From: Amyelois transitella
Taxonomy: Eukaryota; Arthropoda; Insecta; Lepidoptera; Pyralidae
NCBI RefSeq assembly: GCF_032362555.1
Contig: NC_083526.1
Coordinates: forward strand, 3,616,001 to 3,680,000
Direction: 5' to 3'
Length of the DNA stretch: 64,000 nucleotides
Of the stretch, positions 7,857 to 50,214 are shown piece by piece; within the stretch, counting starts at the first letter, position 1, and the number at the start of each line of letters is the position of its first letter. The notes beneath the pieces were generated by a model. The model ran no database searches. It saw only the letters and a list, made by a program, of their open reading frames with translations, and was not told where the DNA came from. The position numbers and the translations under genes are program-made.

Positions 7857-9932
7857 TGTGGCGACATCTCTACGCCACTCGTCACAACATCCAATCTCAC
7901 AACTACTGTCAATCATCGCGAAGAAATTGACGCGCTTAACCAATAGCAGCGAAGAACCCAAATCGCGATTTCAGAGATTTCAAGGATTGGAGCTATATAT
8001 ACAACCTCCGACTCAACATCGTCGGAAAGCTGTCGGAGGCCCAAGTGCCACCAAGAATGGTCAGGGTTTTGGCCTCCTTCCTCACCGATCGCCGAGTTCA
8101 CGTCGCAGTGGAAGACGCCGTCTCCTCCGTGCGCCCTGTGCGCGCGGGAGTTCCGCAAGGCAGCTGTCTGACCCCGGCCTGCTACGCCGCGTTCACCGAT
8201 GACATCCCTGCCGTCGGCCAGCTAGCTGGAGCTAGCGCTGTACGCTGACGATGCGGCGTACTACGCGTCGTCCATACGCCCGCTGTACGCCGCCAAGAGG
8301 CTGCAGCCCACACTCGAGGCTCTGCCGGGCTGGCTCTCCAAATGGAGGCTCTCGGTGAACGTCGGCAAGACCCAAGCGATCGATCATGACGGGGACAAGA
8401 CCCCACCCGCCTCCACTGCGACTGCTCGGCGAACCGGTGCCGTGGCGGCCACACGTCAAATATCTGGGAGTTACCATTGACCGGCGTCTCACGTTCAAGA
8501 AGCACGTGGGAGACGTCGTCGCGAACACCAAGGCAGCGAGAGGGAAGCTTCACGGAGTCCTCTCCTCCAGCCTCCCCCTGAGGACGAAGCTCGGGATCTA
8601 CCGAGCATATGTCAGATCCCGCCTCACGTACGCGGCCCCGGCGTGGTACGCCTACTGCTCTGAGACCAACAGAAGTAGACTCAGAGCCCAGGAGAACCTC
8701 AGTCTCAGAGCAGTCGTCGGCGCCCCGCGGTACGTGAGGAACTCGACGATCCTCAGGGACCTGAAGTGGGAGGGCCTTGACGACTTTGTGGCCAGGCTGG
8801 CCACGAAGATGTTCGAGAGGGCGGACGCATCTGCACATGAACACCTGCGCGGCATCGCGCCACTCCATGCCCGCCCTCCGGACCGTCGCGTGAAGCCCTC
8901 ACCTCGCTGCCTTGCGGCAGACGTCGTCGCCCAGTGATGACGCCGCCGCCGATGGGAACTCCCAGAAGACAGAAGAAGAAGAAGATCCAGGCCGCCACGG
9001 CCGCCCCACTGACCTGCCTACAGCTGTAGGCAGCGATGAAGCCAACGAAGAGGGTCAAAAACCCTGACCGTTTGCTCCAACTCCTACACAAGGAGTTTGG
9101 GAGGACTACACGACCGATCGTCGGAGCCGCGGTTCCCCAGGCATAACACCTAGCCTGGCGGAAGATCTTCCCTTTGGTGGCGGTCGAGCCGAATCATCGC
9201 TCCCGCTACATTGGTGACCCCGACGTGATTGGAAGCAACCTTCATCATCAACTCTCCAATCCTCAGTATCACTCCTCACTCTGCAAGCAGTCTCACAGCA
9301 AGCCAGCAACTGGGTATCGCAGCAGGTCCATCGCAGCCAACTCAACAAGCTTCCTGGTCCTGTCTCCACCCGCACTTACTCTCATCGTCTTCAGCGACCG
9401 ACGCATCTACTGCAGCCCACGCCTGGATCTCTTTGACGGCCGCTCTTCTCTCCAGCGTGGCAGCTCTGCATGAATCTACCGGCGCCAACAAGTCGACTTC
9501 GCTCTCTACCGTCTCGACTCACCGCAGACTACGAGCAACGCAACGGCTCACTCCTGACTCACTAGGACTTCGAGCTACTTCCGACTCACTGGAAGACAAC
9601 TGGCACTTGCAAGCTACTGAAGCACAGATTGCACAGCAAGATCAAGACTTCAGACCTCCGGTCTTGGGGGGGAGTACTGTGGCGACATCTCTACGCCACT
9701 CGTCACAACATCCAATCTCACAACTACTGTCAATCATCGCGAAGAAATTGACGCGCTTAACCAATAGCAGCGAAGAACCCAAATCGCGATTTCAGAGATT
9801 TCAAGGATTGGAGCTATATATACAACCTCCGACTCAACATCGTCGGAGCCGCGGTTCCCCAGGCATAACACCTAGCCTGGCGGAAGATCTTCCCTTTGGT
9901 GGCGGTCGAGCCGAATCATCGCTCCCGCTACA
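7857..9932 (+). mobile_element. Small non-autonomous LTR retrotransposon with nested LINE
   Basis: Two copies of a 255-bp LTR (TGTGGCGACATC...CCCGCTACA) bracket a short internal region at 9211-9677. The right LTR is 9678-9932. The left LTR is 7857-9210 and is split by a LINE insertion. Both ends are flanked by the 4-bp target duplication GACT (7853-7856 and 9933-9936). Directly after the left LTR, 'ttggtgaccccgacgtg' looks like a tRNA primer-binding site, and 'cttggggggggag' just before the right LTR is the polypurine tract. The ~467-bp interior has no gag or pol motif, although a frame from 9229 stays open for 237 codons into the LTR. This is TRIM-like or a Ty3-type deletion derivative that must use enzymes from elsewhere. 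Confidence 0.88.
8026..9116 (+). mobile_element. 5'-truncated Jockey-like LINE inside LTR
   Basis: Inserted in the left LTR with an 8-bp target duplication ATCGTCGG (8018-8025 and 9117-9124). Removing it restores a 255-bp LTR, exactly the length of the right one. It encodes the C-terminal half of a non-LTR reverse transcriptase: GVPQGS (~8150), YADD (~8241), then WLSKWRLSVNVGKT and VKYLGVTID (~8455), and the usual basic/Trp-rich C-terminal region ending at a TGA at 8935-8937. The frame shifts twice (8045 frame, then YADD frame, then the 8386 frame), so it is dead. It ends with an A/G-rich 3' UTR. Confidence 0.85.
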
Positions 9933-9936
9933 GACT

Positions 9937-10847
9937 CAATAAACACGAGACTTAAAGTTCAAAGTGATATAGGTAGGTACGATAGCTCCTAGATAATAAA
10001 AAAAATATCTAGTTTCATTCAATTTAGTTCACACCAAGTCTTAATAGCCTACCTTATAATAAATACCTAAGTTACTAGAGAAACATTTAAAAAATGAAAT
10101 AAGTCTAGATAGTATCTACCAACCAAAGATTTTTTTTCGCTCAATTCGACATGCTGCTTTTTCCAAGGAGGATTTGTTACCACTAACGCCATCTGTCGTA
10201 TTATTGTGATGGCGGGCCGCGCAATGCAAATCGTTCCGAAATTGCAGCAGAGAAAAAACGCAATCGGAAAAATCTGGCAGGTGTTCACTTCTCATTAGGT
10301 CCTTGTACGCACCTGCCTTCGCAATCTGCACGTATTACATTTTCACGAGCCGACCTTTCTAGATAAATTATTCTGTTCGTATGTAGGTAAGTAGAACTAA
10401 TTAACGTGAAATTGAAACTTACACTACCTGCCTACGCCCTACACTGCTACATGGTTATCGATGCATAATAATTATCATTACGTGAAAGGCCTTAGTACTA
10501 AAAAAATTTAAAAGTCATCGTTTTTTAGAATAAATGAATATACCTATTGATAAACATAACATAGGGACTACAAAGTACTCAAATAAATTTAATTTTGTAA
10601 AACCACCTACTAAAACATACAGTAGGCCTGCTGCAGTCTACATTAATTTGAGTGCTAATCGATACTCTTATGGTGAAGTAAAAACAGTGAGAAAACCTGC
10701 CATGATACAATTATAGATATGTCTGAAATGACTGACGTGTCGCCTTCTTGCAATGCAGGAAATTGTAAAATTAGTTACCTACAAAATGGAATAAAAAACG
10801 TTACGGTAAGACTACACATTTACATAACAGTCCTTATACATAAGAAC
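9937..10847. other. Intergenic sequence, no gene seen
   Basis: AT-rich, with one GC-richer patch at about 10200-10240 that contains the octamer-like ATGCAAAT. Open frames at 10067-10331 and 10534-10913 carry no motif. Confidence 0.4.
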
Positions 10848-14386: not shown

Positions 14387-17300
14387 ATGGCAGACGAAGA
14401 AGGTTAGGAAGTGTATTTTTCAAGAAATTTCTGCAACAATATTTCTTATTATTTGCGTTACGATTAATCTTGTTAGCTTGTCTGATAATTATATACTGAT
14501 GTCATTAAATATGTTGGTCAATAAATCCATTTTATTTTTATTTTTCAGCGCCATCAGACAGTAGTCTTTTGGTCATAGTAGTAGACACAAATCCGAACCA
14601 GCGTTACATAACAGAGGACCCCAAAGTCCTGACAAACTGCCTCGATGCCGTCATAGCGTTTGCCAATTCACATTTGATGCAGAAATCTGCCAACCAATTA
14701 GCAGTTATTGGGTGTCATTTTCATAAGAGGCATGTAGAAAAAATTCAACATAGTCAACTTATAAGACCAACCAGGATAACCTTTAATTAATAAAACTATC
14801 GGTTTTTTTTTCAGCGAATACTTATACCCCTCTCCTGGAAAACCTCTAGATGTGAGGCAAATAGATGGACAGTATGAATTGTTCACGTTGGTGGAGAAAA
14901 CTATTAAAGCAAGGCATGTCATATTTACTTACTTATTTGTAACCATCACACAAGGATATCAACATGTATCCTGCTTTTTGTAAAACCCTACTGTATCAAT
15001 CTCTTTTAACTGTGAAAAGAATAGGATATATTTATCAACAAATACAAAGATGTCAAAGATGTGAATTGGCACAAATTATTGTTAGTAATGATGTTAATGA
15101 CTATAATGCATATTCTATTCTGAAAAAAAAATATTTTTGCTAATTGCCATGGGAAAATACTCTAGACTTTCATCATAGCATATTATTATGCATTTTATCT
15201 CCCTATGTCATTTGGAATTTTATATTTTTCAACAACTTACTTCTTCCAGCAGAGCCTGTAGCTCAAGCAGTAGCTTACAGTAACAAAATACATTATCACA
15301 AAGATAGGTTTTGCTATAATATATTTTGTAACTAAAATTCCAGATTTTAAATGATAATTAACTTACAATACTTTAATTTTAGGTTAGTGAACCTAGTCAA
15401 AAGTCAGCCGCTTGAAGAAAAGCCAGGGGAATCACTTCTTGCTGGGGCTCTCGCGATGGCATTATGTTACATAGCTAGGGTAAGTTCACCCATTATTGAA
15501 CACAAGTCTAGATTTTTTCATTTTACCTATGAAAAGAAACCCTTGCATTTACATATAATAATCTTTGCTGGAGATGAGGTAAGCCATGTCTCATATTGGA
15601 TTATGGGCACATACTATGGTTTCCATCACTATTAAATCATTACTCACAACAGAATGATTTGTACATAACCATGTGCATTATGCTTTTTTATTTGGGCACT
15701 GTAAACCATCTGAAGTGTCACTCTTTTATTTAATTTTAACTTCTTGTTGTTGCTAACTAAGACCACACAAACACTTATTTTTTGTGAAATTGCAAATATC
15801 TCAAAGTACTTAACCAAATGGTTCTAGAAATTTTGTAAGGAACATTCATAAAATTTACTTTCCCCTCAATTTGATTGGCAGACTTCACTTGCTTTGCTTG
15901 CTTGATTAAAATAATAATTGGTCACTAATATTATAGTTCTTATTATTTATTTAAATTTAAATTTTCAGATGCGTCGTCAAGCAGCGCCAGGCCTGCGCAT
16001 GAGCAGTCGCATACTCATAGTGACTGGTAGTTCCGACACCGCAGCGCAGTACATCAACTACATGAATGTGTTCTTCACTGCTCAGGTAAATAGGTCATGA
16101 AATTTTAAATTCTTTTACTAGCAACAACTCTCTTATCTTTGGGTCTTCTCTTCATTATTTAGTTTATTTTTTTATTAGATTCTTTACATACATATAACCA
16201 CGTCTCCTTTATAAGGTTATATGAGCCAACAGTCTTGAAAAGACTGAAAGGCCACATTCAGCTGTATGGCTCATTGATGGAATTGAGACTCTTATAGGGA
16301 CATATTGCTAGCCCATTGCCTACAAAATCCCAAGTCGCCTTTCACATCATCCACGGGAAGATATGAGAGAGTGGTCCTATTCTAAATGCCGGGAACCACA
16401 AGCATATCATTGTTTTTAAATACCCATCTGATGATTCCAGAAGCAACAAGTGCTCATCGACGTGTGCTCGTTGGACAAGCACCTCAGTTTGCTGCAACAG
16501 GGCTGCGACATCACGGGCGGGTTGTACCTCAAGATACCAACGTTAGAAGGCCTATTACAGTATCTTTTGGTATGTAATTTAAATTAAAGTTTACCTGGTG
16601 AAAGATCTGGTCAAGGGTACCGAAACCTCTGATGAAAAGTAAAGTATTGGATCGTGGTAAGTGGAAAAATAAAGTCTCTGCCCACTTCGCTGGGAAAGAC
16701 GCGTGGTTTTATGGATTTGTCATTTAAATTGAAAATATTACATTGTTATTATATGCATGGTCTGTTAAGAATAAGAGTCGACTTTGTCTAGATTTCATTA
16801 CTTTTTAGAGATAAACAAACAGCTCCATTGGGAGCATGCTAGTTTTTTAATAGAGAAGAGTGTTTTAGTGTGTTGTTATTTGACAATTTTATGCATGTAA
16901 TTGTCAACATATTACAAAGTCTGAAGCAGATTTAAGAAGGATTATATAAATATTGAAAAGCAATGGTCTTAAAATTGAGCCTTGAGGCACCCCACCGGCT
17001 CGTTGCAATACTTCTATTTCATGTCAAATTGATACTTTTATTAATTAACTGGCGACCCGCCCCTGCTTCGCACGTAGCATTTATACATATAAACCTATTG
17101 AATTACCATCTATAAAAAACCTGCATCAAAATCCGTTGTGCAGTTTTAAAAATCTAAGCACTTGATTGAGTTAGCCTCGAATTAAGTTCGAGACTTGTGT
17201 TACAAGATACTAACTCAACGATAATATATTTTATAATAAATACTTATATAGATAAACATCAAAGAAAATTTTTCCCATCATCCCTGGCCGGGATTCGAAC

Positions 17301-18385
17301 CCGGGACTTCCGGTGTCTCAGACAAGGGTACTACCGCTGCGCCACAGAGGCTGAAATAAAACGGAAAAACGCGAAAAGCTACTTCACTTTATACTATATA
17401 CCTAGTGGTTATGTGATTTCCCAGTGGGTGTTTCTGCCCGACTGCTCGGAGCGCACGAAGCTGGTGCTGCCCGGGCGCGGCCGCGTGGACTACCGCGCCG
17501 CCTGCTTCTGCCACCGCGACCTGCTCACCGTCGGATACGTGTGCTCCGTGTGTCTTAGCGGTCCGTATATATCCTGATTATATTATTAATGCGAAAGCTT
17601 GTACTCACAAGCTTTCGCATTAATAATATAATATGATTTAACAAATTAATGTATATAACAAACATCCATACCCACATACTCATGTGGGTATGGATGTTTG
17701 TTACTCTTTCACGCTAATATGTACTACTTAACCGTTAACGATGAAATTTGACGAATTACGATGAATATATAACTGATATATTTTATTTTACAGTGTTCTG
17801 CAAGTTCAGTCCAATATGCACCACTTGTCAGTAAGTATATTTCTACTTATTATTTAAAAATGCAAAGAGATATGAGATTAATCTTTTAAAATTAATTATG
17901 TTTCATGAATTGTGACATATTAATGTTTTAACTCATACACGTTTTCAATAACAGTCTCTTATGTTATTCAGTAGGTACTAGATTCCCGCGTATTTGCTTG
18001 CATATAAATTGCATCTTTTGCGGTAACCTGATGTATAAGCTGTAATGTTTTTTATAATTTGTTGCATATCTTGGTACTAATAAGATAATAATATTTTTTT
18101 AATAAAAAACAATTATCTTGATAAAAAGAAACAGAATATATTTCTGTCCAAATAAAATAGCCACAGCAATTTAATTGAAATGATTGAATTTTTAAGTATC
18201 GTTCGTTAGTAAGTATTCCAAAACGACTTACTCTAGGGCTCAGCTCAATTTGTGTAATTTGTTCCATAAACATTTGTTTATTTCATTATAGCGACAGTAA
18301 ATTTAGTTGTTTTTTTTTCAGCACCGTGTTCAAGATCGGTGGCCCATTGCCCATGATGAAGGCGAAGAAGAGGAAGAAGGTGTGA
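14387..18385 (+). CDS. GTF2H3: General transcription factor IIH subunit 3 (p34/Tfb4)
   Basis: Structural subunit of the TFIIH core, acting in the nucleus in RNA polymerase II initiation and nucleotide excision repair, partnered with p44. Nine coding exons: 14387-14402, 14549-14729, 14815-14913, 15383-15479, 15969-16085, 16441-16569, 17425-17560, 17794-17830, 18322-18385 (876 nt, 291 aa, close to the ~308 of the human protein). N-terminal von Willebrand A-like fold starts at [10 protein letters not shown] (residues ~12-21); [14 protein letters not shown] (~115-128) and [12 protein letters not shown] (~190-201) are family signatures. A C-terminal zinc-binding region has Cys 240, 242, 253, 256, 261, 267 and 270, and the tail is Lys/Arg-rich. 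All phases join without a stop. Introns 2 and 3 use GC donors (gcatgt). Introns hold a family A repeat, a tRNA-SINE and two perfect hairpins. Identification is from remembered family sequence; strong. Confidence 0.93.
16186..16404 (+). repeat. Family A interspersed repeat in GTF2H3 intron 5
   Basis: Forward, nearly full-length copy ending 'gccgggaaccacaagc' only 36 bases before the acceptor of exon 6, so it supplies sequence close to the branch-point region. An internal stretch is deleted. Confidence 0.8.
17048..17157 (+). repeat. Degenerate repeat tail (family C-like)
   Basis: 'gcatcaaaatccgttgtgcag' with 'cgcccctgcttcgcacg' is a typical old lepidopteran non-LTR repeat phrase. It lies next to the SINE at 17158. 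Confidence 0.45.
17158..17351 (-). mobile_element. tRNA-derived SINE (family B) in GTF2H3 intron 6
   Basis: Read on the minus strand it starts with a tRNA-like head (GCCTCTGTGGCGCAGCGG with an A box, and a B box within GGGTTCGAATCCCGGCC), followed by a body with 'atctatataagtatttatt' and 'cgaggctaactcaatca'. A second copy lies at 58751-59010. It ends 73 bases before exon 7. Confidence 0.85.
17577..17632. repeat. Perfect hairpin, 26-bp arms, ACTC loop
   Basis: Arms 17577-17602 and 17607-17632 are exact reverse complements (core GCGAAAGCTTGT) around ACTC. It starts 17 bases after exon 7 of GTF2H3. Confidence 0.95.
17656..17703. repeat. Perfect hairpin, 22-bp arms, ACTC loop
   Basis: Arms 17656-17677 and 17682-17703 are exact reverse complements (core CATCCATACCCACAT), again around the loop ACTC. 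It lies 23 bases downstream of the previous hairpin. Confidence 0.95.
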
Positions 18386-26339: not shown

Positions 26340-29300
26340 TTACACTGTCTGCTCAGTGTCGTCCCTAGTACTAGACATAGCGTCCGAAGTATTCATCGAA
26401 GTAACCGTTCTATACAATTTTAGGTTAGACTCTGTATAGTCTAGAATCTTCCTACTGGAATGTCGGATGTATAGCATTTGTTTATGGTATATTTTGAGGG
26501 CGCCTTTTATGGTTATATACGTTAGGCCACCCAGGATGGTCCTGTGTAAGTTGTTTTGTATGGACCTGAAGAAGATTTTGCCAATTATTGTGGATATAGT
26601 GGGGAGCAGCAGCGCTGAGCAGAATATTCGTGTTGGTGACAGGTGCGAGTTGCCGTTCTGGTTCTGGTTGTTGTTCTGGCCTGTCACGATGGCGCCACGG
26701 TCGCCTTCCACTCTGAAACATTGCTTCCTTTTTAATTTTCATTGTAATATGAGCTAAAACTTAGTTTATGCGACAGGAAGATTCAATTTTAACAGTGGGT
26801 CCCTGGCTTGGGAGTTTTTTATGCTTTAAAGATATAGCGGCGATTTTTTACACTGCTAAAATTCATATATCAAATTTTAATTCACACTATTTATTAAGGC
26901 TTAAAATTGGTTAGAAATAAAACTATCATCAAAAGGTCTTTATTTAGAAGGCATCTGTAGCGCAGCCATAGTCCCACGAACTAGAAAATTCTATTGACAG
27001 ATCCTACATTCTTTTTAAATTTTTTCAATATCAAACCAGCAGTTCGAATGTTATCGCGTAACAAACAAACAGATAAAATGTATTTTCATCCCCAAGTAGG
27101 TAAGTAGAAGATACAAAACAAAAATATAGTCGTTGAATTAGTATGTATCTCGTAACACAAGTCTAGAACTTAATTTATATTTTGCAATTAGTAAAAACAT
27201 GATAAACATATACATAACGATAATAATCTTCCTTGGCCGATTAATTTCATCACGAACAAAAATAAATACGATAGCTTTAACATGGTCAGTTAATAAGTTA
27301 ACCCCAATACTACGTAGCAAACAAAGTCCGCATACGAAAATCCTATCAGCTGATAATATTGACAAAACATGCAACCGTTTATCCACCGAGCAAGCAACTG
27401 GGAGAATATTTTATATTGTCATTATCCAATAGCAAATCGTTTGCAAATGTTAAACCAGAATAACATTTCTTGGCTATAAAAGAAATAGACAAGACATTAA
27501 CTCAAATAATACAAACAATTAACATCACGGCTCTTTCCCGAAGCGGTAAGTAGGCGGCATTTTTACAGCTGCACACTTCGTTCGCTACGTTCAAACTCTT
27601 TACATGCAATTTCTTCACATAGCCTTCTTTGCCGTGTGGTTCCCGGCACCAGAAAAAATAATAGGACCACTCTATCTATTTCCCATGGATGACGTAAAAG
27701 GCGACTAAGGGTAGGCTTATAAACTTGGGATTCTTGTTTTAGGCGATGGGCTAGCAACCTGTCACTATTTGAATCTCAATTCTATCTTAAAGCCAAATCG
27801 CTGAACGTGGCCTTTCAATCTTTACAAGACTGTTGGCTCTGTCTACCCCGCAAGGGATATAGACGTGATCATATGTATGTATGTATGTACATGAATATCC
27901 CATTTTATGTTTATGAATAGACCACAGATACCAAGAAGTTAGTTACAATAATAACTCTTTCATTTAGTAGGCGGTAAAAAATAGGAAACTTATATTGAGG
28001 CATGTAGCACATGTAAGTACATAAGTACTTCCTATTTTTCAACACAATTGCAGTGGGCCGGTCATGCGTAAACAAGCAGCTGTTTTTTTTTAAACAATCA
28101 CGCTAGACTTGGGTACGAAATTTATAAATCTAACAGTTTCGAAGAACTATTCAAAACCAGATAAATCTAACAGGAATCAAACCATAACGTACATTAATAG
28201 AGTACCTATACAGATCCACTACACACCTTCATTATTTTCAGTGTATGAAAATGAAGCGATATTTGTATGGGGCACATTCTAAATAAGTAATAAAGATCGT
28301 TTACGATCTTTTAGTGATAAAGTCACCTTTTGCTGCAATATTTTTTAATACATGTGAATATGCTGTAATTTATTATGGTGCAATAAAGAGTTATTGTATA
28401 TTTGTAAGTAAAACAATAAACATTTTTCCCAGACAACTGAAAAACATCTTTCCACTTCCCATGATCCCGACATACATTTTGTTTTTGCAAATTCAAGGTT
28501 TAGGGGACGTTCATTCATTATTGACCTAACCTTTCCCCGGAATTTCCCGACCCTAGTCTACATATTGTACCTACTTATATACAAAACTTAACATCCATAT
28601 GCATTAATTATACATTCAACATTCCTCAACAGCCCTTATTGCAATCACGAAGACAAAACAGACAGACAAAATAATTTTAAAGTACAAATACTTATAGTAC
28701 TCACCCGCCAAAAGGTAGTATATACGCCAACGCTGGTATCTTAGCACAGTACTTCCTCAAGAACAGAAGAACGGAGTCCTCCCAGTTGTACATCTTGGCG
28801 CTGATGAGGGTCACAGGTATGGTGGGGAGGAGGACCAGCAGCACCAGGGGGTCGGCTGACTCCATCATCTCCAGGCCCTCGCGGTGACCCACCACCTGGA
28901 ATTACAGGTTAGGGGTTCATAAGTCATCTTTCTGTCGTCATTGATCAGATGAGAAATATATTAAAAAAGACATAATTTTTTTAAATACTGAAAAAGGCTG
29001 CATGTATTTATCCCTCGTCGCAAGTCAATACGGCCACAGAGGTATTGAGAGGTTGCTAATCCTGTATTGCGTCTAATAGTAGAATCTCAAATTTATAAAC
29101 CTCTCTCTGGCAACTGGCACACCACGTTTTTTTCGCTAGTGCATGGCTGCAGTTCATACAGTTCTAGTCTAGATGGACAATCATGAAAGTTGCAATGGCT
29201 TGTACACTTTTCTTTGTGACCCATTGCAGTACGTAGCGTTGCGAAATGTGAATGAATTGACTGATATTTTCGTCCTGACACCAAACTCTCTTAAAGACGT

Positions 29301-32300
29301 TTCGATACATTAGTTGTCTTTTTTTAACTCGGTAAACCACAAAATGTAATTTTTTACAACACAATAAAAACGTTACAATTGAATGAGCTGGAAAGCGGAA
29401 AACAAATGCATAATGACAAAATTACATCCAATTGAGTTGTGAGAGAAAGTAGTAACGCCAAATCTATCGTCCTATTATGTAAGCCAAATAATACCTCACC
29501 GGTTGAATTATACAACTTAACATGTGCAATGGATATAGTTTTATTTGAAGACACTATATCACATACTAAAAACTACTGGGAGTCACACTAAGTCATACAA
29601 AATTCAGAAACGATACCTAAATGACCTTGATTTTTTTAAATTTCATTTCTTAGAAAGCCTAGTTCCTAGTTCGAAAACTCTAGAAAAATCCACAAAACTT
29701 CATTATTAAAATTTAACAATCACATATATAATTAACACAATTATAATAGCGTAGAATATAACACGACATGTGTGAAACAACAAATTCAAGTACAAAATTA
29801 TGAAACCAGTCGAAAACGAACTACAAAATCAAATAGTTTAACAACTAAAACAAAATGACTCATATTAAATTAACATAACTAGAATCTGCGCGATACTTGC
29901 CCCAAAACATGTTTATTGGCATTCAGACTGGGTTTTTAAACATTGTTTTCTATATATTCGCCTTTTACGACATCCATTCATGGGAACGAGATGGAGTGGT
30001 CCTATACTTTTTTTTTATTGGTGCCAGGAACCACACGGCACTTCTATCTATGTTTCAGCGAAACCCATGTTTCGGCTGTAACTTTATAAGTCAGCTTACC
30101 CTTTTTATATTTCTATAAGAATGAAGAAAAAAATCTTTCAAACAAAAATTAATATGAATAGGAATACATTTTGAAGAATAAGGAACTGAATCATGGATCA
30201 AGTCAACAAACACTGACGATCCTAGAATGTGACTGATTCTACTCTTTGATTACGAGTATTAATTCCGGAATTCCCCGCAATAGAAGGATCTAGCTCATTT
30301 AAACCATATCTATTTCTAATATCATAGTATTTGGATTTCCCGGAATCAGGCCACTGAGAAGTCCGGTTCGAAATTTAGATTTTGTATGCATGGAATAACG
30401 TGCTATCCATCTGTTATCTGCTAATTATGACGTCAAACAACCGATTTTGTTACGCACGTAAATTTTTGCGAGCACTTGCTAAGTACAATGAAATCCTTTA
30501 TTCACCTAATACGAATCCGTTATCTATACAAGCGATGATCCTACGTCAGGCTAAAACCGTTATGATTAACCCTATTTATATTTTACCGTAAATGCTCTTT
30601 GTGCCGAAAATTCGTGACGAGATAAAAGCATGTGTGAGTACCTGCTGTAGACTAGCTGTCATGTTAAAAGTAGTGACGAAGTCTACAATGTCATCTGTTA
30701 CTTAGAATTCAGCTTTCAAGTAGAGAAAGAGATCTTTAAATCAGTGCAAAATAAAATTTTTCCTTTTAAAAATAAATTGGGATATAAATAAAAACTTAAA
30801 TGGAAAAGAAAACATTAAAAATTAGTATGTCGCCTGGATAGCCCGTGTAAATAGGGCCTATCCTGCGGGGAGCTTAACCGAAAAGAAAAGTATGAGAAAA
30901 AGGAAATGGAAAAATATGATATTATTCAAGGCTAGACGACCGTATAACTAGGCAGTTTAAAAGGTACTCACCAACATCCACCGTGCAGAAGAAATCCTCG
31001 CAGTGAGACTGACCAGGGCTCTGGGAGGCTTCTAAGTTCTGCCGACCGGCTATTTGTAAAGTCCTTGAATAATACTGATTACACCAAATGTCTATGTTCA
31101 CTTCACAAATCGAAGTAGTATAATGACTAACGACTTAATAAAACTCATAAATTAACAGTTCCAGTCGAAGATCAATTAAAAGAACGGAGAAGATAAAAAT
31201 TCGGAAGATTCCGACATTAGAGATTTTGACACAATGTTTTTAAAAAGAAAAACAACACACTATCGCTCATGTGGCCAGTCAGACGCTAACCAAAGAGGCC
31301 TTCCGCATTAGGTTTTAGAAGGAGGTACCTCGCCACTACCTAGATGGTGCTAGCCTTGAATGAAAAACCTAAAGATATGGGTAAATAAAAATAAAAATGA
31401 AAAGATGGGACATATCGGTCCAACCATTCTCCCCGGCTTGGAAGTTCAAAGAACTTTCAAAGAAAAGAAAGTTGAAGTATATTAATTATTACAATATATG
31501 ATGAGAGAGAACACGGCTGAATTAAGAGACAATTCAACAATTAACGTAATTTAAAAATTATATTTTTAGGCAAATGAATTAAAGTTATTTATTGAGTTTA
31601 TAAATGATAAAATTTAACAACCGGTCTTTTATAACACCGTATTTTGTTTTTAACTAAGGCAACTCTGATAGTTTCATCATTGCCTGGATATAATTTTATA
31701 ATTAAACCTATAGGCCAAGTAAATGAAGCGAAGTGAATGAGATGAGACCCGAAATAAGTATTACTTTTTTTAAGTTTAAATCTTACGACAGTTCTAGCAT
31801 CTAATATCCCGAACTTTAGTTTCAGAATGTAAATAATTAAACCGAAACAAAGAAGTTTATCAGCTTTGATTAACTTTATATGCTTATGGAAATGTACACT
31901 GTGAACGACACGTAGTAAAAGTATTTCACATATTAAATGTGCCTTAATATTAATAACTGACACCTTCTTTTTGAAACGCAATACATAAATCGTAGTACGC
32001 AAAAGTTTCTCCCAGGAAGAAAAACGTTTAGAGAACTCATATAATACGAGCGATTCATTTTGATAAGTTAAAACATTGACTTTGAGTTCAGGTAAATAAT
32101 CCATATTTGGTGGGTTGATAAACCAAGGAAGGTAATTCCACCACAAGCTATTGGAAAGCAATAATTCAGCATATAGTATGACTGGGGCATTTACACCTTG
32201 AACATCGAATGAGCGAGCTACAATAGAGAGGATATTCCTCTTAGTACATTTATCATGTACATCGCAAACAGTAACAAACAACTTGTCATCACCAGGCTCC

Positions 32301-35300
32301 CACGCGAGACCTAACACCTTGGAAAAATTCCCCCCATTAGAAATATTCACCGTACTTCGGTGAAACTCGGGTAAGTGGGACAACAGCTCAGAAGAGTTGC
32401 TAGTCGACTTGACAAGGTCGAAAGATCCTGCCTTAAATAGGGAAACCAATTGTTTGGACAAAGAAACTACAATTTTATCATTAGGCACTGAATAAACTAA
32501 ATCGTCTATATGAAGCCTACTCTTAGAAGCAGCGACTGCTTCAGGAAACTCATGAGACGTACCCTCAGCTAACTGCTTAACAGTTCTCATAGTGAGATAA
32601 AGGCTTGACTTCAGTCCAAAAGGTAAAGGACTGAATTGAAAAGTATAAGTAGGTGGGAACGACTCATTGAATCGAAACAAAATACGCCAATATTTCCGAT
32701 CATTTTCGGGATTTATAATTTGTAAATACATTTGTTTCACATCAGCCGTCATAGCTATTGGAAACAATCGAAAATCAATAAGTAGTAAAAATAAGTCCGC
32801 CTGCAAATTAGGGCCAACGTAAAAGATATCATTCAGAGAAAGACCAGTATGCGTTTTAACGGTTGGATCTAAAACGATACGAGGCATAGGCTTGTCTGCA
32901 CGAATAACCGCGTGGTGAGGAATGTAATAGCCCTCAACATTTAAAGAAGATTGGGGAACTTCAGATAAATAGTCATTATCGATGTAATCTTGAATTACAG
33001 ATGTGTAATTCTCCCTTAACCCGGAAGTATGTTTAAATTTTCGCTCTAAAGCCATAAATCGACGAAGAGCAATAGCCCTTGAATTACCTAATTCTGAAGG
33101 CGTGCGACAGAACGGCAGAGGAATGGAATAGCGGCCACACTCGTCACGTGACACCGAAGATGTGAACAAATTTTCACATTCTGTTTCTTCCGGACTTAGA
33201 TATTTCATCAGCGGTATCTCCTCTAACTCCCAGAAATTCTGAAGGACATCGTTAAGAGCGAACCCAGTGAACGAAGTAACAGAGGATGTTTTGGGTACAT
33301 CACCCATTAAAACATAACCAAAGGTAGTCAATACAGCGGGTGGCGCGCTAGTGCCTGATTCAACTCTGTCACCTAGGTAAATATAGGGGAATAGCTGAGC
33401 GCCAAGGATTAAGTGTATATCCCCGGGAATGTTCCAGGTAAGGTCAGCCAAACAAATATTTTCTAAATGAGTAAAATCAGATTTATCAATAAAACAGGAT
33501 GGCAATTCATCCGTTAGACAATCAACCACTAATGCACTAATTTGGTATGACTGTTTGCTGTCTACACGAGACTCAATATTTAAAACAACATGCCCATGAA
33601 TAGGACGCGTTGACATACCAATTCCCTTAACAAAAGAATTACTTAATGGAATTATTGGTAAGTTCAATAATTTGCAAGTGTCGGTTGTTATAAGGTTATT
33701 CATTGAAGCATTATCAATCAAGCAATGAATCAACATCTTACTCGCATCCCTACCCTTGGCGTAGACCTGTGCCGTAGCTAGCAAAATAGCGCTCGAATGC
33801 ACTTTAGCATTAAAAGACATCGAAGCGGCATCGGTAAACAAAGATGACGTCACAGGGGCGGGTTGATACGGCGGGTTCTGCGCGCCACTGGCGGAGTTCA
33901 TACTCAGGTTCGAAACATTCTCTACGACCTGACAAGCGGGCCGCTGACTAGTGCACGCGCACTCGACTCGAGATGAAGAATCAGTTTTACCGACTTGCGA
34001 AGTTTGGAAATGAGTTTTGCTTTTAATAGCATTTTGCTCAGAATTATGTACTCTATCGAAATGCAACAAAGTATGGTGTCGCTTGTTACATAATCTGCAA
34101 ACAGCTGACGAATTACAATTGGAAACAGTGTGGTTTAATCCACAACAGTTAACACAACCGTTCTTAGATTTAATAAAATCATATCTACTTTTAGGTGAAT
34201 CTAAATTGCGGAAAGATGAACAGTGATACAACGCATGCTTATTGCCATGACAACAAGGGCATTTCTCAAGTGACACGGAATCAACAGTGTTGTCACAATG
34301 AGACAACAACGTGTACGTATTCTTCTTACGCGAGTTATTAGAAGACTGAGAAAGAGGTTTATTGACGTTCGAATTTTTAGAGCTTAAATTATTTGAACGT
34401 TGTAATATTTTAACTTGATCACGAATAAATGTAACTAAATCATCAGAGGAAGGTATTTCTTTCTCACGTACCGATAACTCGAAAGCTTGTACAGATTGAG
34501 TGTCTAAATTACGTAATGCACAATTGAGGAAAATAAAATCAGACAATTCCGAAATCCCTAACTGTTTTAATGCTAATATAGAAGCAGAGTATTTCTCAAT
34601 GAATATCTCTAAGCTCTGTGCAGTATAAGAAGTATTTTTCAAATCAAAAATATTAGACAAATAATGTGCACCTAGCGTGCGTTTGTCTTGGTATCGTTTA
34701 ACTAAGCTATCCCATATTATTCTATAGGTTTCGCCAGTAGGTACAATTCCGGCCGTGATCTTGAGGGCGTTGTGCGTTAATTTACCTATTAAATATTGCA
34801 CCCGCTGAGAATCTGACAATTGAGTATTATTATGTATGTTAGATTTGAATGACTCATAAAAAATAGGCCAGTTCTCAGTACGTCCATCGAAACTAGGGAT
34901 CTCAACGGCAGGAAGTTTAATATGAGTTTTTTGATTACATTTTGATACCGTGGGCTCCTTGACCTTGACCTCGTCATTCACGTTATTACGAACACGTTTG
35001 ATACGACAGTACAGATCGTCAAAGACGGCCAACTCTTGATAATTAGGAACAAATTTAGGGTTATCTTCCAGCATTAGCAAATTAATTTTATCAATTATTT
35101 TTTCAAAATTACCACGCAAATCGTCAATTGTCTCTGACGTGGCCATGAAACTTTCACAGGATTTTAATGTATAACTAGTAACCTTCTTTGAAAGTTCAAA
35201 TATATCACTAATACGGGAAAAAAGCATTTGTTTTTTAGAATTCAAAAGGGAAATTTCGGGATTATTCTCCATTACATCGGATAAAGCCATTATGGAGATA

Positions 35301-38300
35301 GAAATGAAATAAATGAAGTCTTGTGGTATTTCACAAAACCAATTAATAATTATTATTGATTATTTCGGTATGAAATAATATCAGAAAACCGAAAATAACG
35401 TTAAGGGGAAATGCTAAAAATTATGCAAATATGACAAATTTTATAATATGGCGACAGATGAAATGTTCAGGGATGAAATCCCTTTCCTCCCTGAAAGAAT
35501 TCAGCTTTCAAGTAGAGAAAGAGATCTTTAAATCAGTGCAAAATAAAATTTTTCCTTTTAAAAATAAATTGGGATATAAATAAAAACTTAAATGGAAAAG
35601 AAAACATTAAAAATTAGTATGTCGCCTGGATAGCCCGTGTAAATAGGGCCTATCCTGCGGGGAGCTTAACCGAAAAGAAAAGTATGATAAAAAGGAAATG
35701 GAAAAATATGATATTATTCAAGGCTAGACGACCGTATAACTAGGCAGTTTAAAAGGTACTCACCAACATCCACCGTGCAGAAGAAATCCTCGCAGTGAGA
35801 CTGACCAGGGCTCTGGGAGGCTTCTAAGTTCTGCCGACCGGCTATTTGTAAAGTCCTTGAATAATACTGATTACACCAAATGTCTATGTTCACTTCACAA
35901 ATCGAAGTAGTATAATGACTAACGACTTAATAAAACTCATAAATTAACAGTTCCAGTCGAAGATCAATTAAAAGAACGGAGAAGAGAAAAATTCGGAAGA
36001 TTCCGACATTAGAGATTTTGACACAATGTTTTTAAAAAGAAAAAACAACACACTATCGCTCATGTGGCCAGTCAGACGCTAACCAAAGAGGCCTTCCGCA
36101 TTAGGTTTTAGAAGGAGGTACCTCGCCACTACCTAGATGGTGCTAGCCTTGAATGAAAAACCTAAAGATATGGGTAAATAAAAATAAAAATGAAAAGATG
36201 GGACATATCGGTCCAACCATCGCCTACATTTCCCAAACGCACACCAAAAACTTTTATTTCAACGCTTTATATTTTGACTAATCCCTTAATACTAAATTTC
36301 GCACACACATGATTGGTAAGTACTTTTCAACCCGGTAGAAACTACCGTTCCCGTGGAAGCAATAAACAAAAATTCTCGCCGGCGAAGTAGCGTATAAACA
36401 GTCGGAAGAATTAGTCGAAAGAATTGAGAGAACAGTCGGAAGAAGTGAATACAACGAGAAACCGCAAAGATTAAAGAGAGAGGGAGAGAGTGCCTCACAG
36501 TTTTCATAAACATTCTTCTGTCGGTCAATCGTCTGTAGGTGAAATTCCGTAAAAAATTATATATTGATTGACAACAACAAAATTATGCAACACTATGACT
36601 CATGTTTCGTATTGGACAGATACTGATAAAATATCTCATTATTATTCATATTACTACTATAATTAATAGTTTATCTACAGTTCATCTTGGTTAAACATAA
36701 ATAGCGAATATGTTTATGCAGGTACGTCTAGATTGCAGTTGAAAACGTGAAATATAACAGCAATTTTATATAGATTCTTTGTATTATTGCTACTTTTAAC
36801 TTCCAAAATAATTGGAGGAGAATTTCTTGCATTTGAAGGCAAGATGAGCTAGGACCTATTAAAGACTTTATTTTTAATAATTCCATAGCTCTTTCTTTGA
36901 TTATTATTTATATATTTATCTACATCAAGGAATATAAGAATAAAACTTAAAATAAAGAGAAATCCAGTACAATTGATTTTTATTTTATAGATTTATTAAA
37001 CAAAGAGAAGCATGAATATTTCGGCACAAGTATAGTCTTATCAAAGATGACGAAAGCAATCAACACAACAATATGATAAATTAATTCAGATATAGGTACA
37101 TATACTGGCAACAATAACTCCATGTCCTTTATCACCTTGAAAAGTCTCCAACTCATGAAATATAAATCAATATTTACCACAGTTTCGATACTTACTTACT
37201 TAAACGTTATTAAGACGAAGACACCATACGTAAATTGCCAATTATCATAGTTACCTACGTATTAACGAACCAAAATTGAAACAATACATTTGACGCCGAC
37301 AAATCATCGTAATGGATTGATTTCAAGCGATTTTTCACGCTTTATCAACGTGGATGTTTTGTAAACAGCGCAACACTTGATAACTTAGTTATGTATTTAC
37401 CAAAATAAGATTTTTAACGTGTTAAAGAAATTCTATTTTTTTAGGAATACATAAATTAGCCATTATCTGCAACCAACAAGTTTCATTTACCTTTTGACCT
37501 TTTCCATCACAAGTACTCTTTTTCAGAACATTTTTTTTTTATTCGTATAATAATGCAGTTGTATTTAATACGAAGCGGTATCTTTCACGCGCACGTATCA
37601 TTTTCAGTTTAAAACATGCAAAGACTTCAACACAACCAACCTGAAATAAAGCCAATGCACCAATGGCAATCGCTGTCAAATACTCAGCCACAGCCATCAC
37701 AAAACTGCCAGCTCCAAGCACAAGCTCATTAAGACTCTCAAACTCTACTGCATACAGTAGGTATACGGAGCCACCCGTGATCAGCACAAACATCAATGCT
37801 AGTATGTAAATGCCTACCTGCATCACAGTAACAGCTCCGTACGTTATAGCAATCCAGTATATAGATCCCAGTAACACTCCACCGGCGATGAATGGGCAGA
37901 TTTTGTGGGTGATTTCTTCGACGGCGTCTAGTAATGCAACGAATGCGCCCATAGACGGGAACACCACTATATATTCTGCTTTGCACTGTGGACACAGGAC
38001 CTTTCTGGCAATGTTGCCTCTTTGCTTTTCATCCACCCACCGCTGGAGGCAGCTCTGATGTACCTGGAACAAGCGATTTGATCAATGAAACAGATAGTGC
38101 AGAATATTGTGCCTATATTTTTATATGCAATCTAACTATTTGTAATGGATGTATAATTCCAGCCTCAATAAAAGATGGTATACTTTAGAGTAGAACCACT
38201 TCATATCTTTCCCATGGAAGTCATAAAAGACGACTAAGGTACTCTCGTAGGAGGGCTAGCAACCTGTCACTATTTGAATCTCAATTCCATCATGAAGCCA

Positions 38301-41300: not shown

Positions 41301-42509
41301 AGTCTCGAAAAGACTGAAAGGCGACATTCAGCTGCATGGCTTCATGATGGAATTGAGATTCAAATCCAAACAAATCCCAGGTTTATAAGTCTATCTCTTA
41401 GTCGCCTTTTACAACATCCATGGGAAAGATATGGAGTGATTCTATTCTAAAGTGCTAGAAACCAAACAGCATTGTGTAATTTTCAGATCAATTTGGATAA
41501 ATATTTTTTCATTTTATTAAATGGACCTCTTGCAATTAATAGCCTGACTTAATAACTTGACAAGGCTTATGTTTTATCTTCCGTCTCTATAATTGAGATC
41601 TATCAAGTAGGTAGATAGAGAGATATAGACACACATTATTATTATGCCTTTGACTTTATTACTGGAAATTTCAAGAGTTATCTACAGTATTCAGATTAAC
41701 TTTCTCCCTATTATTGGCAAACATTTTGCAGCCTCTGTGGTATCAACGCATCTTTGAGGGCTAAAATAGTGTTGAAAAACAAATAGAAGGAATATCTACT
41801 TATTCCAAAAAAGGGATTAAAATCTGTAAAAATTACATAGGTAATAATGAAAAATGTAGTTTCTTGATAAATTTTTCATGTAAGACCCAAATTTTTTGAT
41901 TGCATGATAAAGTATTTAAAACATTGATACCATGTGTAATTTTATTGTGAGAATGAAACGCAACAGGAAATGGAAATCTAATAAACTTGGGATTTATTAG
42001 TAAGGTGATAGGCTACCAGCATTATTTAAATCTCAATTCCATCCTAAAGCTGAACACAACCTTAACATTTAGATTCCAATTGGAGTAAATATTTGAAAGT
42101 AGTTTTTTTAGAATCATGATTAAAAAATTAATTATACCAAAACACCTTCCTATCAATACGTCAGCTTACGTAAAAAAGGTTCTTTTTCAAGAGATACTGA
42201 AAATTTTACGCATTTTGCGCAAAATATAAAGCAATTATATTGATAAGTTATGCAATTTACAGCCTGCCGCGCTTTCACCGCAGTATAACAGTAACTTGCT
42301 TAAATGTTGCATTGGCAAAAACTTACCCATTTTGTGGTTCCAATACATTTGCAAGGTTGCACCCACGCTGCCAGCTTATCGTCGGCCTCTGTAGCAAAGC
42401 ATACCCAGCAAGACTTCAAATTCTCATCATCAGCAGTTTGCAAAGCTTGTGATTGCGAGGTGCCCGTTCCCATATTTGTTTCTTGTGCTGGAGACTTTTC
42501 ACTTGACAT
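26340..42509 (-). CDS. MARCHF5: E3 ubiquitin ligase MARCHF5 (MITOL-like)
   Basis: Membrane RING-CH E3 ligase of the mitochondrial outer membrane, ubiquitinating fission/fusion and stress proteins in known homologues. Four coding exons on the minus strand: 42509-42327, 38063-37818, 28895-28705, 26712-26340 (993 nt, 330 aa). All junctions are GT-AG and in phase. C4HC3 RING: C34, C37, C53, C55, H63, C66, C85, C88. Four predicted membrane segments: ~119-142 (IYWIAITYGAVTVM), ~160-178, ~236-256 and ~263-282 (RTILGGLTYITIKGALK). The VMQ|VVGH junction and TILGG motif match the vertebrate protein closely. The 330 aa exceed the ~278 of human MARCHF5 because of an Asn/Gln-rich linker (~218-230) and a longer Ser/Thr-rich tail. 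Intron 2 (~8.9 kb) hosts a BEL retrotransposon. Exon 2 may have a longer form, listed separately. Confidence 0.93.
27631..27889 (-). repeat. Family A interspersed repeat, full length, MARCHF5 intron 3
   Basis: Reverse copy from 'gccgtgtggttcccggcacc' to 'gatatagacgtgatc' plus (ATGT)n. It is well preserved. Confidence 0.9.
29959..30041 (+). repeat. Family A fragment (3' third)
   Basis: Forward 'cgccttttacgacatccat' to 'ccaggaaccacacggcac'. The remainder of the unit is absent. Confidence 0.8.
30704..31426 (-). repeat. BEL element 3' LTR
   Basis: Nearly identical to 35496-36219. Contains 'tcgcctggatagcccgtg' and 'gggcctatcctgcggggag'. It is the 3' LTR because the polypurine tract adjoins its 31426 side. 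Confidence 0.92.
31598..35290 (-). CDS. BEL/Pao gag-pol polyprotein, RNase H and integrase cores missing
   Basis: One open frame of 1230 aa starting at ATG 35290. Gag part: DUF1759-type region ~125-300 (PSFDGRTENWPIFYESF), then Cys/His knuckles at ~344-357, 379-392 and 398-410. Aspartic protease around LIDNASM (Asp526). Reverse transcriptase ~790-940 with TADVKQMY (Asp850), LPFGLKSS and the catalytic HIDD (~927-930). A Peptidase_A17-type segment follows (~960-1040). From there the frame jumps to integrase-N-like sequence (FSSWEKLLRTTIYVLRF, ~1090) and then to the DUF5641-type tail (WPIGLIIKLYPGND...KRPVVK). RNase H and the integrase catalytic core are not found, and full Pao polyproteins are several hundred residues longer. 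The element is therefore non-autonomous for integration, although the frame stays open. Confidence 0.88.
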   Translation of the reverse strand: MALSDVMENNPEISLLNSKKQMLFSRISDIFELSKKVTSYTLKSCESFMATSETIDDLRGNFEKIIDKINLLMLEDNPKFVPNYQELAVFDDLYCRIKRVRNNVNDEVKVKEPTVSKCNQKTHIKLPAVEIPSFDGRTENWPIFYESFKSNIHNNTQLSDSQRVQYLIGKLTHNALKITAGIVPTGETYRIIWDSLVKRYQDKRTLGAHYLSNIFDLKNTSYTAQSLEIFIEKYSASILALKQLGISELSDFIFLNCALRNLDTQSVQAFELSVREKEIPSSDDLVTFIRDQVKILQRSNNLSSKNSNVNKPLSQSSNNSRKKNTYTLLSHCDNTVDSVSLEKCPCCHGNKHALYHCSSFRNLDSPKSRYDFIKSKNGCVNCCGLNHTVSNCNSSAVCRLCNKRHHTLLHFDRVHNSEQNAIKSKTHFQTSQVGKTDSSSRVECACTSQRPACQVVENVSNLSMNSASGAQNPPYQPAPVTSSLFTDAASMSFNAKVHSSAILLATAQVYAKGRDASKMLIHCLIDNASMNNLITTDTCKLLNLPIIPLSNSFVKGIGMSTRPIHGHVVLNIESRVDSKQSYQISALVVDCLTDELPSCFIDKSDFTHLENICLADLTWNIPGDIHLILGAQLFPYIYLGDRVESGTSAPPAVLTTFGYVLMGDVPKTSSVTSFTGFALNDVLQNFWELEEIPLMKYLSPEETECENLFTSSVSRDECGRYSIPLPFCRTPSELGNSRAIALRRFMALERKFKHTSGLRENYTSVIQDYIDNDYLSEVPQSSLNVEGYYIPHHAVIRADKPMPRIVLDPTVKTHTGLSLNDIFYVGPNLQADLFLLLIDFRLFPIAMTADVKQMYLQIINPENDRKYWRILFRFNESFPPTYTFQFSPLPFGLKSSLYLTMRTVKQLAEGTSHEFPEAVAASKSRLHIDDLVYSVPNDKIVVSLSKQLVSLFKAGSFDLVKSTSNSSELLSHLPEFHRSTVNISNGGNFSKVLGLAWEPGDDKLFVTVCDVHDKCTKRNILSIVARSFDVQGVNAPVILYAELLLSNSLWWNYLPWFINPPNMDYLPELKVNVLTYQNESLVLYEFSKRFSSWEKLLRTTIYVLRFKKKVSVINIKAHLICEILLLRVVHSVHFHKHIKLIKADKLLCFGLIIYILKLKFGILDARTVVRFKLKKSNTYFGSHLIHFASFTWPIGLIIKLYPGNDETIRVALVKNKIRCYKRPVVKFYHL
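35496..36219 (-). repeat. BEL element 5' LTR
   Basis: Partner of 30704-31426. It is followed on the minus strand by a ~205-bp leader before the polyprotein ATG. The leader has an imperfect hairpin (TTCAGGGA/TCCCT..CCCTGAA, 35465-35496). Confidence 0.92.
36220..37537. other. MARCHF5 intron 2, unremarkable part
   Basis: AT-rich intron sequence. The open frame at 36292-36528 has no motif. Confidence 0.4.
37538..37543 (-). terminator. AATAAA overlapping an in-frame stop
   Basis: If exon 2 of MARCHF5 is not spliced at either donor, its frame runs to TAA at 37539-37541. That TAA lies inside an AATAAA, followed by an A-run and then a T/G-rich stretch. This is a possible alternative 3' end for a truncated membrane isoform. 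Confidence 0.35.
37641..37817 (-). CDS. Possible alternative 59-codon extension of MARCHF5 exon 2
   Basis: Directly after the canonical donor (CAG|gtaggc at 37818/37817) the same frame continues without a stop for 59 codons to a second donor (CAG|gttggt at 37641/37640). Both donors are phase 0, so using the second would insert 59 residues between VMQ and VVGH. The segment is hydrophobic (YILALMFVLITGG; FVMAVAEYLTAIAIGALALF) and could add two membrane passes. It aligns with the end of exon 2 over ~45 positions, about 16 of them identical with one gap: LLxAVE in both, AG, and a final GA..Q before the donor. That pattern suggests a duplicated exon end. Canonical joining at 37818 matches the vertebrate protein exactly, so this would be an isoform or a decaying duplicate. 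Confidence 0.45.
38190..38383 (-). repeat. Family A repeat, MARCHF5 intron 1
   Basis: Reverse copy from 'ccacttcatatctttcccatgg' region to 'ggatatggacgtgac'. The terminal 'gccgtgtggttcccgg' end is lost. Confidence 0.75.
38912..38964. repeat. Perfect hairpin, 24-bp arms, 5-nt loop
   Basis: Arms 38912-38935 and 38941-38964 (core GACACGCCTATTAT) are exact reverse complements around AGGCA, in MARCHF5 intron 1. A family A repeat begins right after it. Confidence 0.95.
38970..39205 (+). repeat. Family A interspersed repeat, full length
   Basis: Forward copy from the CATA-rich lead and 'cacgtctatatccc' to 'cgccgggaaccacacggcac'. Confidence 0.85.
39636..39725. repeat. Short interspersed repeat (family E)
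   Basis: 'agagaggatttcctggaatt', 'cgcgggaaggtaaac' and 'gatttacgcgggcg' match the order of phrases at 51244-51330, so the two are copies of one family that I do not recognise. Confidence 0.5.
39778..39900 (-). repeat. Family A fragment
   Basis: Reverse middle part with 'cttttaggcgataagg', 'ccatcttaaagccata' and 'gagcgtggcctttcag', diverged. Confidence 0.65.
40585..40672 (+). repeat. Short interspersed repeat (family D)
   Basis: 'ccatgatccttgcatacttc' and 'ttcacccattcattaatctt' belong to a phrase set (ttgccacgatc..gcatac..cttcatccacattcat) also found at 21648-21740, 43428-43505 (reverse), 44700-44810 and 55780-55880. Confidence 0.5.
41264..41471 (+). repeat. Family A interspersed repeat
   Basis: Forward copy with the conserved 'cagtctcgaaaagactgaa' hairpin and the 'tagtcgccttttacaacatc' block. 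The end is degraded to 'gctagaaaccaaacagca'. Confidence 0.8.
41970..42062 (-). repeat. Family A fragment, degraded
   Basis: 'ataaacttgggatttattag', 'ggtgataggcta' and 'aaatctcaattccatcctaa' keep the order of the reverse unit. Confidence 0.5.
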
Positions 42510-48907: not shown

Positions 48908-50214
48908 CAGGGTGGGCCATGAATTTGTTTACATTTGAATTTGACTTCGCGCGCAAACAGCAGAGGGGCGTGGTGCGGGGAGAGGTCTAACAGCTAGCTC
49001 AGTTCTTGGAAATTTAGTTGACATGGATCGCTTCACGGGACCGCAGCGTGCCTTTTGGGTAAAGCAATTTTATTTAAACAATAGTTCGCTCACTCTGTGC
49101 GGCGTCTATTTCGCGTGGAATTCCATTTACACGACCTAAATGAGTGCCCAAGCTCAGTTTTAATAAAGAAATGGGTAAACAAATTTGAAAAGACCGGATC
49201 GACGCTGAATGTGAAGCAAACCGGCGGCCCACGGACTTCACGGAGTGATGAGAACGTGCAGAGAGTTTCAGCTTCAGTTCGGCGCGATTCAAATTTGTCG
49301 ACGCGCAAACGCTCGGCTGAATTAGGCATATCTCGCACGTCTTTACGCCGCATTTTGAAATGTGATTTAAAATTACATCCATATAAGATTCAATTAGTGC
49401 AAGAACTAAAGCCTAATGATTTGATTTTACGCAAACATATGCTGAAACAATGTTGGATCGCTTCCGTAACTTTGACAACATCTTGTTCTCTGACGAAGCC
49501 CACTTCCATCTCAATGGGCACGTCAATAAACAAAATTACAGATATTGGAGCAGCGAAAATCCCAGGGCTAAACAACAAAGGCCTCTTCATTCCCTTAAGG
49601 TCACTGTATGGGCAGCCATTTCAGCTACAGGAATCATTGGACCTTATTTTTTTGAGGATTTTCGTGGCTGTACGATCACAGTAAACTCCTCCGAGTATGT
49701 GAAGCTGCTGAGAGAATTTTTGACACCACAGCTGCAAGAATTTGCCGGCTACAATCGGCAGACGTGGTTTCAGCAAGATGGAGCGACTTGCCACACGTCT
49801 AATGAATCCCTACCGGTCGTCAAAGAAATGTTCCCAGAAAAGCTCATTTCCCAAAGAGGTGACATTCCGTGGCCACCTAGGAGCCCCGACCTAACGCCAG
49901 CCGATTTTTTTCTTTGGGGATATCTAAAACATCGTGTCTATACCCACAAACCAAAGACATTGCTTCAATTAAAGGCGAAAATAAGAGAAGAAATGTCAGC
50001 GATCCCACGATCTTTATTACGGCGAGTATTCGAAAATTTTCGTGCTCGTTTAGAGGAATGCCAACGCCGTGATGGTGGCTATTTAAATGATATTATTTTT
50101 AAAAAGTAATTTCCATTTTATAAGCTATCTCTTAAATAAATAATTTTTGATGTAAATATAATAGTTTTTTTTTAATGAATTTTTAAAATGTTAACTAATT
50201 CCTGGCCCACCCTG
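48908..50214 (+). mobile_element. mariner-type element, DD41D spacing
   Basis: 1307 bp with terminal inverted repeats of about 29 bp (CAGGGTGGGCCA at both tips, 26 of 29 bases matching) and a TA duplication on each side (48906-48907, 50215-50216). It encodes a Tc1/mariner transposase on the plus strand, described separately. Both ends are intact while the gene is broken. Confidence 0.93.
49023..50109 (+). pseudogene. mariner transposase, two frameshifts
   Basis: ATG at 49023 starts MDRFTGPQRAFWVKQFYL. The frame changes near 49096 and again near 49440; each change corresponds to one missing base. The helix-turn-helix DNA-binding half spans 49023-49430 (KWVNKFEKTGS, GGPRTSR). The DDE/D domain has FSDEAHF (first Asp), QQDGATCHTS (second) and SPDLTPADFFLWG (third), with 41 residues between the second Asp and the Asp of ADFF, which fits the DD41D (rosa-like) group. 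Stop TAA at 50107-50109. As it stands no full enzyme can be made. Confidence 0.9.

Follow-up and report, generated by a model that had tools for sequence, protein, structure and literature searches.

The 64,000-nucleotide stretch of Amyelois transitella DNA analysed here ("the window", in which all positions are numbered) carries a MARCHF5 gene on its minus strand. A tblastn search of the window with the human MARCHF5 protein returned four blocks on that strand, collinear with one another and along the protein, with an identity of about 57-64% to the human sequence over the main blocks. Exon ends were then set by the splice sites read from the DNA. The gene, the extension of exon 2 that is the subject of this report, and the tail that follows it are laid out as follows, where a slash within a motif marks a splice junction:

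42327..42509, minus strand: MARCHF5 coding exon 1, from the start codon to the donor TGG/GTAAGT (tblastn with the human protein, joined translation)
37818..38063, minus strand: MARCHF5 exon 2, with the end of the RING-CH domain and TM1, up to donor 1, CAG/GTAGGC, at 37818/37817 (tblastn, joined translation)
37641..37817, minus strand: in-frame extension of 59 codons with two hydrophobic segments, up to donor 2, CAG/GTTGGT, at 37641/37640 (open frame, codon score, hydrophobicity, single copy)
37539..37640, minus strand: tail of 33 more open codons and a TAA, with an AATAAA overlapping the stop (intron-like codon score)
28705..28895, minus strand: MARCHF5 exon 3, with a phase-0 acceptor, beginning VVGHREGL... 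(tblastn, joined translation)
26340..26712, minus strand: MARCHF5 exon 4, ending at the stop codon (tblastn, joined translation)

Joining the four exons through donor 1 gives a protein of 330 aa (the short form), in which the RINGv domain (PF12906) is found at 49.1 bits (cut-off 21.6; E 6.4e-13). The junction of donor 1 with exon 3 restores exactly what we take to be the arrangement of the human protein (VTVMQ/VVGH).

Several other features lie in the window. Inside MARCHF5 intron 2, on the strand of the gene, there is a 1253-aa open frame of a BEL/Pao-type retroelement (31601-35359, minus strand); its DUF1759 and DUF5641 matches are over the cut-offs, and its Pao peptidase and reverse-transcriptase matches are weak and below them. 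On the plus strand, 49085-50106 holds a Helix-turn-helix (DUF4817) match and a weak DDE_3 match in two open frames that overlap and differ in phase, a pattern as in a decayed mariner-like transposase, and 17170-17574 is an exon with a Tfb4 match (E 4e-18), belonging to a TFIIH subunit gene. Open frames are present on both strands at 8185-9939, where the GC content is 0.54-0.64 against 35% for the window; the two longest had no Pfam match at E 0.01.

Exon 2 ends at GTGATGCAG/GTAGGC (37818/37817), and 59 further codons in the same frame lead to TTTATTTCAG/GTTGGT (37641/37640). When the DNA was re-read, the coordinates, the frame and both CAG/GT sites were as the first-pass annotation had given them. 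The 177 bases 37817-37641 contain no stop in frame, against 7 and 4 in the strand's two remaining frames, and the frame remains open for 92 codons past donor 1, 33 of them beyond donor 2, before the TAA at 37541-37539. Since donor 1, donor 2 and the acceptor of exon 3 are all in phase 0, either donor can join exon 3, and the long form reached through donor 2 would have 389 aa.

An open stretch of this length had been called unexpected, and our simulations agree: of 20000 intron-like Markov sequences with the statistics of this gene's introns, 2.0% were open for 59 codons and 0.24% for 92. We also drew a genomic sample of 24 loci (240 kb of the species' own genome, coding parts included), in which 59 open codons followed 19 of 342 CAG/GT sites and 92 followed 6 of them; at none of the 342 did the open frame lead to a second in-frame CAG/GT 40-92 codons further on. 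Within the 8611 bases of this gene's introns CAGGT occurs twice and CAGGTnnG is absent. Because CAGGT is so rare there, an in-frame CAGGT at the point where the coding signal ends (see below) is notable. The T at position +3 of donor 2 (GTTGGT), an uncommon base at that place in a donor, counts against the use of this site. The earlier description of the stretch as AT-rich proved incorrect, as the GC content is 0.45 in the extension, 0.49 in exon 2 and 0.35 over the 99 bases that follow the extension. The best GC boundary falls at 37571, past donor 2, while a boundary at donor 2 is 2.6 log units worse and one at donor 1 is 7.4 log units worse.

Coding character was measured by a codon score that contrasts nine distinct open frames with MFS transporter matches, taken from the species' own genome (10 MFS matches, two sharing one frame), with triplets of this gene's introns. 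We found that the extension scores 0.225 per codon, the same as exon 3 (0.225), with exon 2 at 0.159 and exon 1 at 0.099, although this score is not independent of hydrophobicity because it was trained on membrane proteins. The mean over 71 MFS pieces, each scored after its gene had been removed from the training set, was 0.086. The score can miss a true exon, since exon 4, read in the right frame, gives -0.036; the 33-codon tail gives -0.044 per codon. In the genomic sample the value of the extension was reached by none of 299 open windows with a GC content of 0.40-0.50 and, without a limit on GC, by 6 of 888 open windows, and in this gene's introns by none of 25 open windows. Among open dinucleotide shuffles, 2 of 1500 reached it; the corresponding counts were 81/1500 for exon 1, 3/1500 for exon 2, 33/1500 for exon 3, 74/152 for exon 4 and 349/1500 for the tail.

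Followed in blocks of 15 codons, the score is still positive on crossing donor 1 and throughout the extension, and it drops below zero just after donor 2. The second half of the extension carries most of it (0.332, against 0.114 for the first). In addition, base composition differs among the codon positions of the extension more than expected from mononucleotide shuffles (p 0.013), and equal unevenness was seen in 1.6% of 1661 overlapping windows from 20-60 kb, with the exons and the retroelement masked. All p-values in this analysis are optimistic, because the finding had been singled out by a reader who had the whole window to choose from. Altogether, these results support the conclusion that the extension reads as coding and that the coding signal stops at donor 2.

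The extra peptide had also been described as hydrophobic, which the comparisons confirm. Its mean Kyte-Doolittle value of 1.57 exceeds that of all 1151 open 59-codon windows from the sample and the window (0/1151 reach it). Of the shuffled versions that are open, 11 of 2000 dinucleotide shuffles and 1 of 3000 mononucleotide shuffles attained this value. Most of this signal is carried by the first half, since its value was reached by 21/2000 shuffles and that of the second half by 191/2000. The hydrophobic peaks, near GIYILALMFVLI and VMAVAEYLTAIAIGALALF, flank an acidic stretch and form two candidate membrane segments. A simple Kyte-Doolittle scan (peaks >1.3) yields 5 peaks for the short form, 7 for the long form and 5 for a form that retains the intron; the scan itself does not reproduce the four-TM description of the protein, as the short form already gives 5. 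Hardly any gap separates TM1 from the first new segment, which leaves little room for a turn and makes the topology uncertain.

The first-pass annotation had further proposed that the extension duplicates the preceding membrane segment. A local alignment of exon 2 with the extension does exist, over 45 columns with one gap, but by our own count it holds 15 identities where about 16 had been claimed. Its score is 36, which 600 of 20000 shuffles attain when compared with the TM part and 800 of 20000 when compared with the whole of exon 2; it was also reached by 3 of 143 hydrophobic MFS 59-mers and by none of 42 hydrophobic pieces of the sampled DNA. A comparison anchored at the donors is more suggestive. 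It omits the final Q, since the splice consensus imposes this residue; the match of the last 13 residues before the donors (YWIAITYGAVTVM, YLTAIAIGALALF) was reached by 0 of 1035 hydrophobic MFS k-mers, and that of the last 19 by 1 of 786. At the DNA level, exon 2 and the extension are no more alike than shuffles (score 21.0, shuffle mean 21.1), and the extension showed no resemblance to exon 3 or exon 4. Thus, of the proposed duplication, the suggestive match at the ends stands, while the overall alignment is within reach of shuffled sequence and lacks a DNA counterpart; the extension may possibly be an old duplicate of the end of TM1.

In the 327-Mb genome of the species, exon 2 matches itself only, both as DNA with the extension and as protein alone, and the protein of the extension plus tail matches itself and one chance-level place that contains a stop (E 0.68). 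The extension is thus single copy in its own genome at the sensitivity of the search. Relatives of the protein of exon 2 plus extension were sought in a viral collection (viral_contigs; 2 pattern matches, 0 confirmed) and in a prokaryote collection (genome_contigs; 57 pattern matches, 0 confirmed). A PDB search by sequence gave no match for exon 2 and none for the extension plus tail, and the extension has no match in Pfam. An origin of the extension from a mobile repeat was considered and rejected, because the abundant repeat in question, at about 38300-38182, lies upstream of exon 2 and outside the extension. This piece (38182-38300) has many matches in the window and in most of the sampled loci.

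The explanation that we favor, at slightly better than an even chance, is that exon 2 has two 5' splice sites and that two isoforms of 330 and 389 aa are made. We rank it as the likeliest because donor 1 joins exon 3 as it does in the human protein. The upstream donor (37818/37817) would yield the ordinary 330-aa ligase, and the downstream donor (37641/37640) would keep the 59 codons and thereby insert two additional membrane segments behind TM1, ahead of the next loop, in a form of 389 aa. Part of the transcripts would in this way gain a membrane hairpin through the second donor. With two passes added, the C-terminal tail would stay on the same side of the membrane; the packing around TM1 would change, since the first new segment follows TM1 almost directly. 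From the sequence we infer the use of donor 2, the making and stability of the protein, its topology and a function of the long form, which may perhaps lie in a change of its partners, its assembly or its stability in the outer mitochondrial membrane. As for the isoform that had been proposed, its coding-like character and its two hydrophobic segments in frame with exon 3 hold up, and the internal duplication is weaker than claimed.

A rather unlikely alternative, though one to be taken seriously, is that chance has left an ordinary stretch of intron open, GC-richer and hydrophobic, and that donor 1 is the sole donor used. The 59 open codons after 19 of the 342 CAG/GT sites of the sampled DNA, coding parts included, are in line with this, as is the selection of the finding from many. 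What it has to accommodate is that the codon score, the hydrophobicity and the open frame are each unusual and that the signal stops at an in-frame CAG/GT. In a variant of the same explanation, 37641/37640 would be a recursive splice point: the CAG/GT there is also acceptor-like, TTTATTTCAG resembles true acceptors and has a branch-like TTGAC upstream, and the 177 bases run from GT to AG. However, the stretch before this AG is no strong pyrimidine tract, and a recursive splice point would leave the hydrophobic frame unexplained.

We consider it improbable that the transcript ends inside intron 2, giving a 235-aa form that comprises the RING, TM1, the new segments and a basic tail (KLKMIRARERYR) up to the TAA at 37541-37539. 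It is true that no stop interrupts the 33 codons of the tail (5.9% of its shuffles are likewise open), that the GC content is raised as far as about 37571, and that an AATAAA overlaps the TAA; however, an AATAAA is found near 72 of 566 stop triplets in this gene's introns. A retained intron is ranked lower on account of the codon score of the tail, which is that of intron (-0.044 per codon, a value that 349/1500 shuffles reach). Equally doubtful is a lineage-specific constitutive insertion in which donor 2 alone is used and every MARCHF5 of the species has the hairpin: the coding signal does run through donor 1 without a dip, but donor 1 (GTAGGC) seems no worse a site than donor 2, and its junction with exon 3 is exactly the human arrangement (VTVMQ/VVGH).

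Alternative 5' splice-site usage is a general phenomenon, and the two-isoform explanation would fit it in that exon 2 has two in-phase donors, both of which suit the next exon; the difference is that the candidate extension here would encode a two-segment membrane hairpin. Two papers present MARCHF5 (MITOL) as an E3 ligase of the RING-CH type that sits in the outer mitochondrial membrane and has four transmembrane domains (PMC4897099, PMC6893362). The present gene resembles it in the RINGv domain and the exon order, and is unlike it in the possible insertion of 59 residues in two segments after TM1. For fish MARCH5B, likewise a MARCH5 gene with a splice variant, a variant that excludes exon 5 has been described (PMC4897099); that variant lacks an exon, whereas in the present gene an alternative donor would make an exon longer. 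Drosophila CG9855 was used as one full-length cDNA in a study in whose main text the word "isoform" does not occur (PMC10427020). Among the open-access matches listed for MARCH5, MARCHF5 and CG9855, none concerned an insect MARCHF5 isoform of this kind.

A more far-reaching proposal, which we regard as unlikely, is that the lineage switches between the donors, that the hairpin would be an old duplicate of TM1 under selection, and that splicing would set how MARCHF5 is seated in the membrane and which partners it has. MARCHF5 is a regulator of mitochondrial dynamics, and descriptions of the protein give it four TM segments. If the two-isoform explanation is true, the hairpin spliced in beside TM1 would be a natural variant for probing the membrane part of MARCHF5, and the locus would exemplify a coding extension that is missing from the annotation and was recognized from sequence alone.
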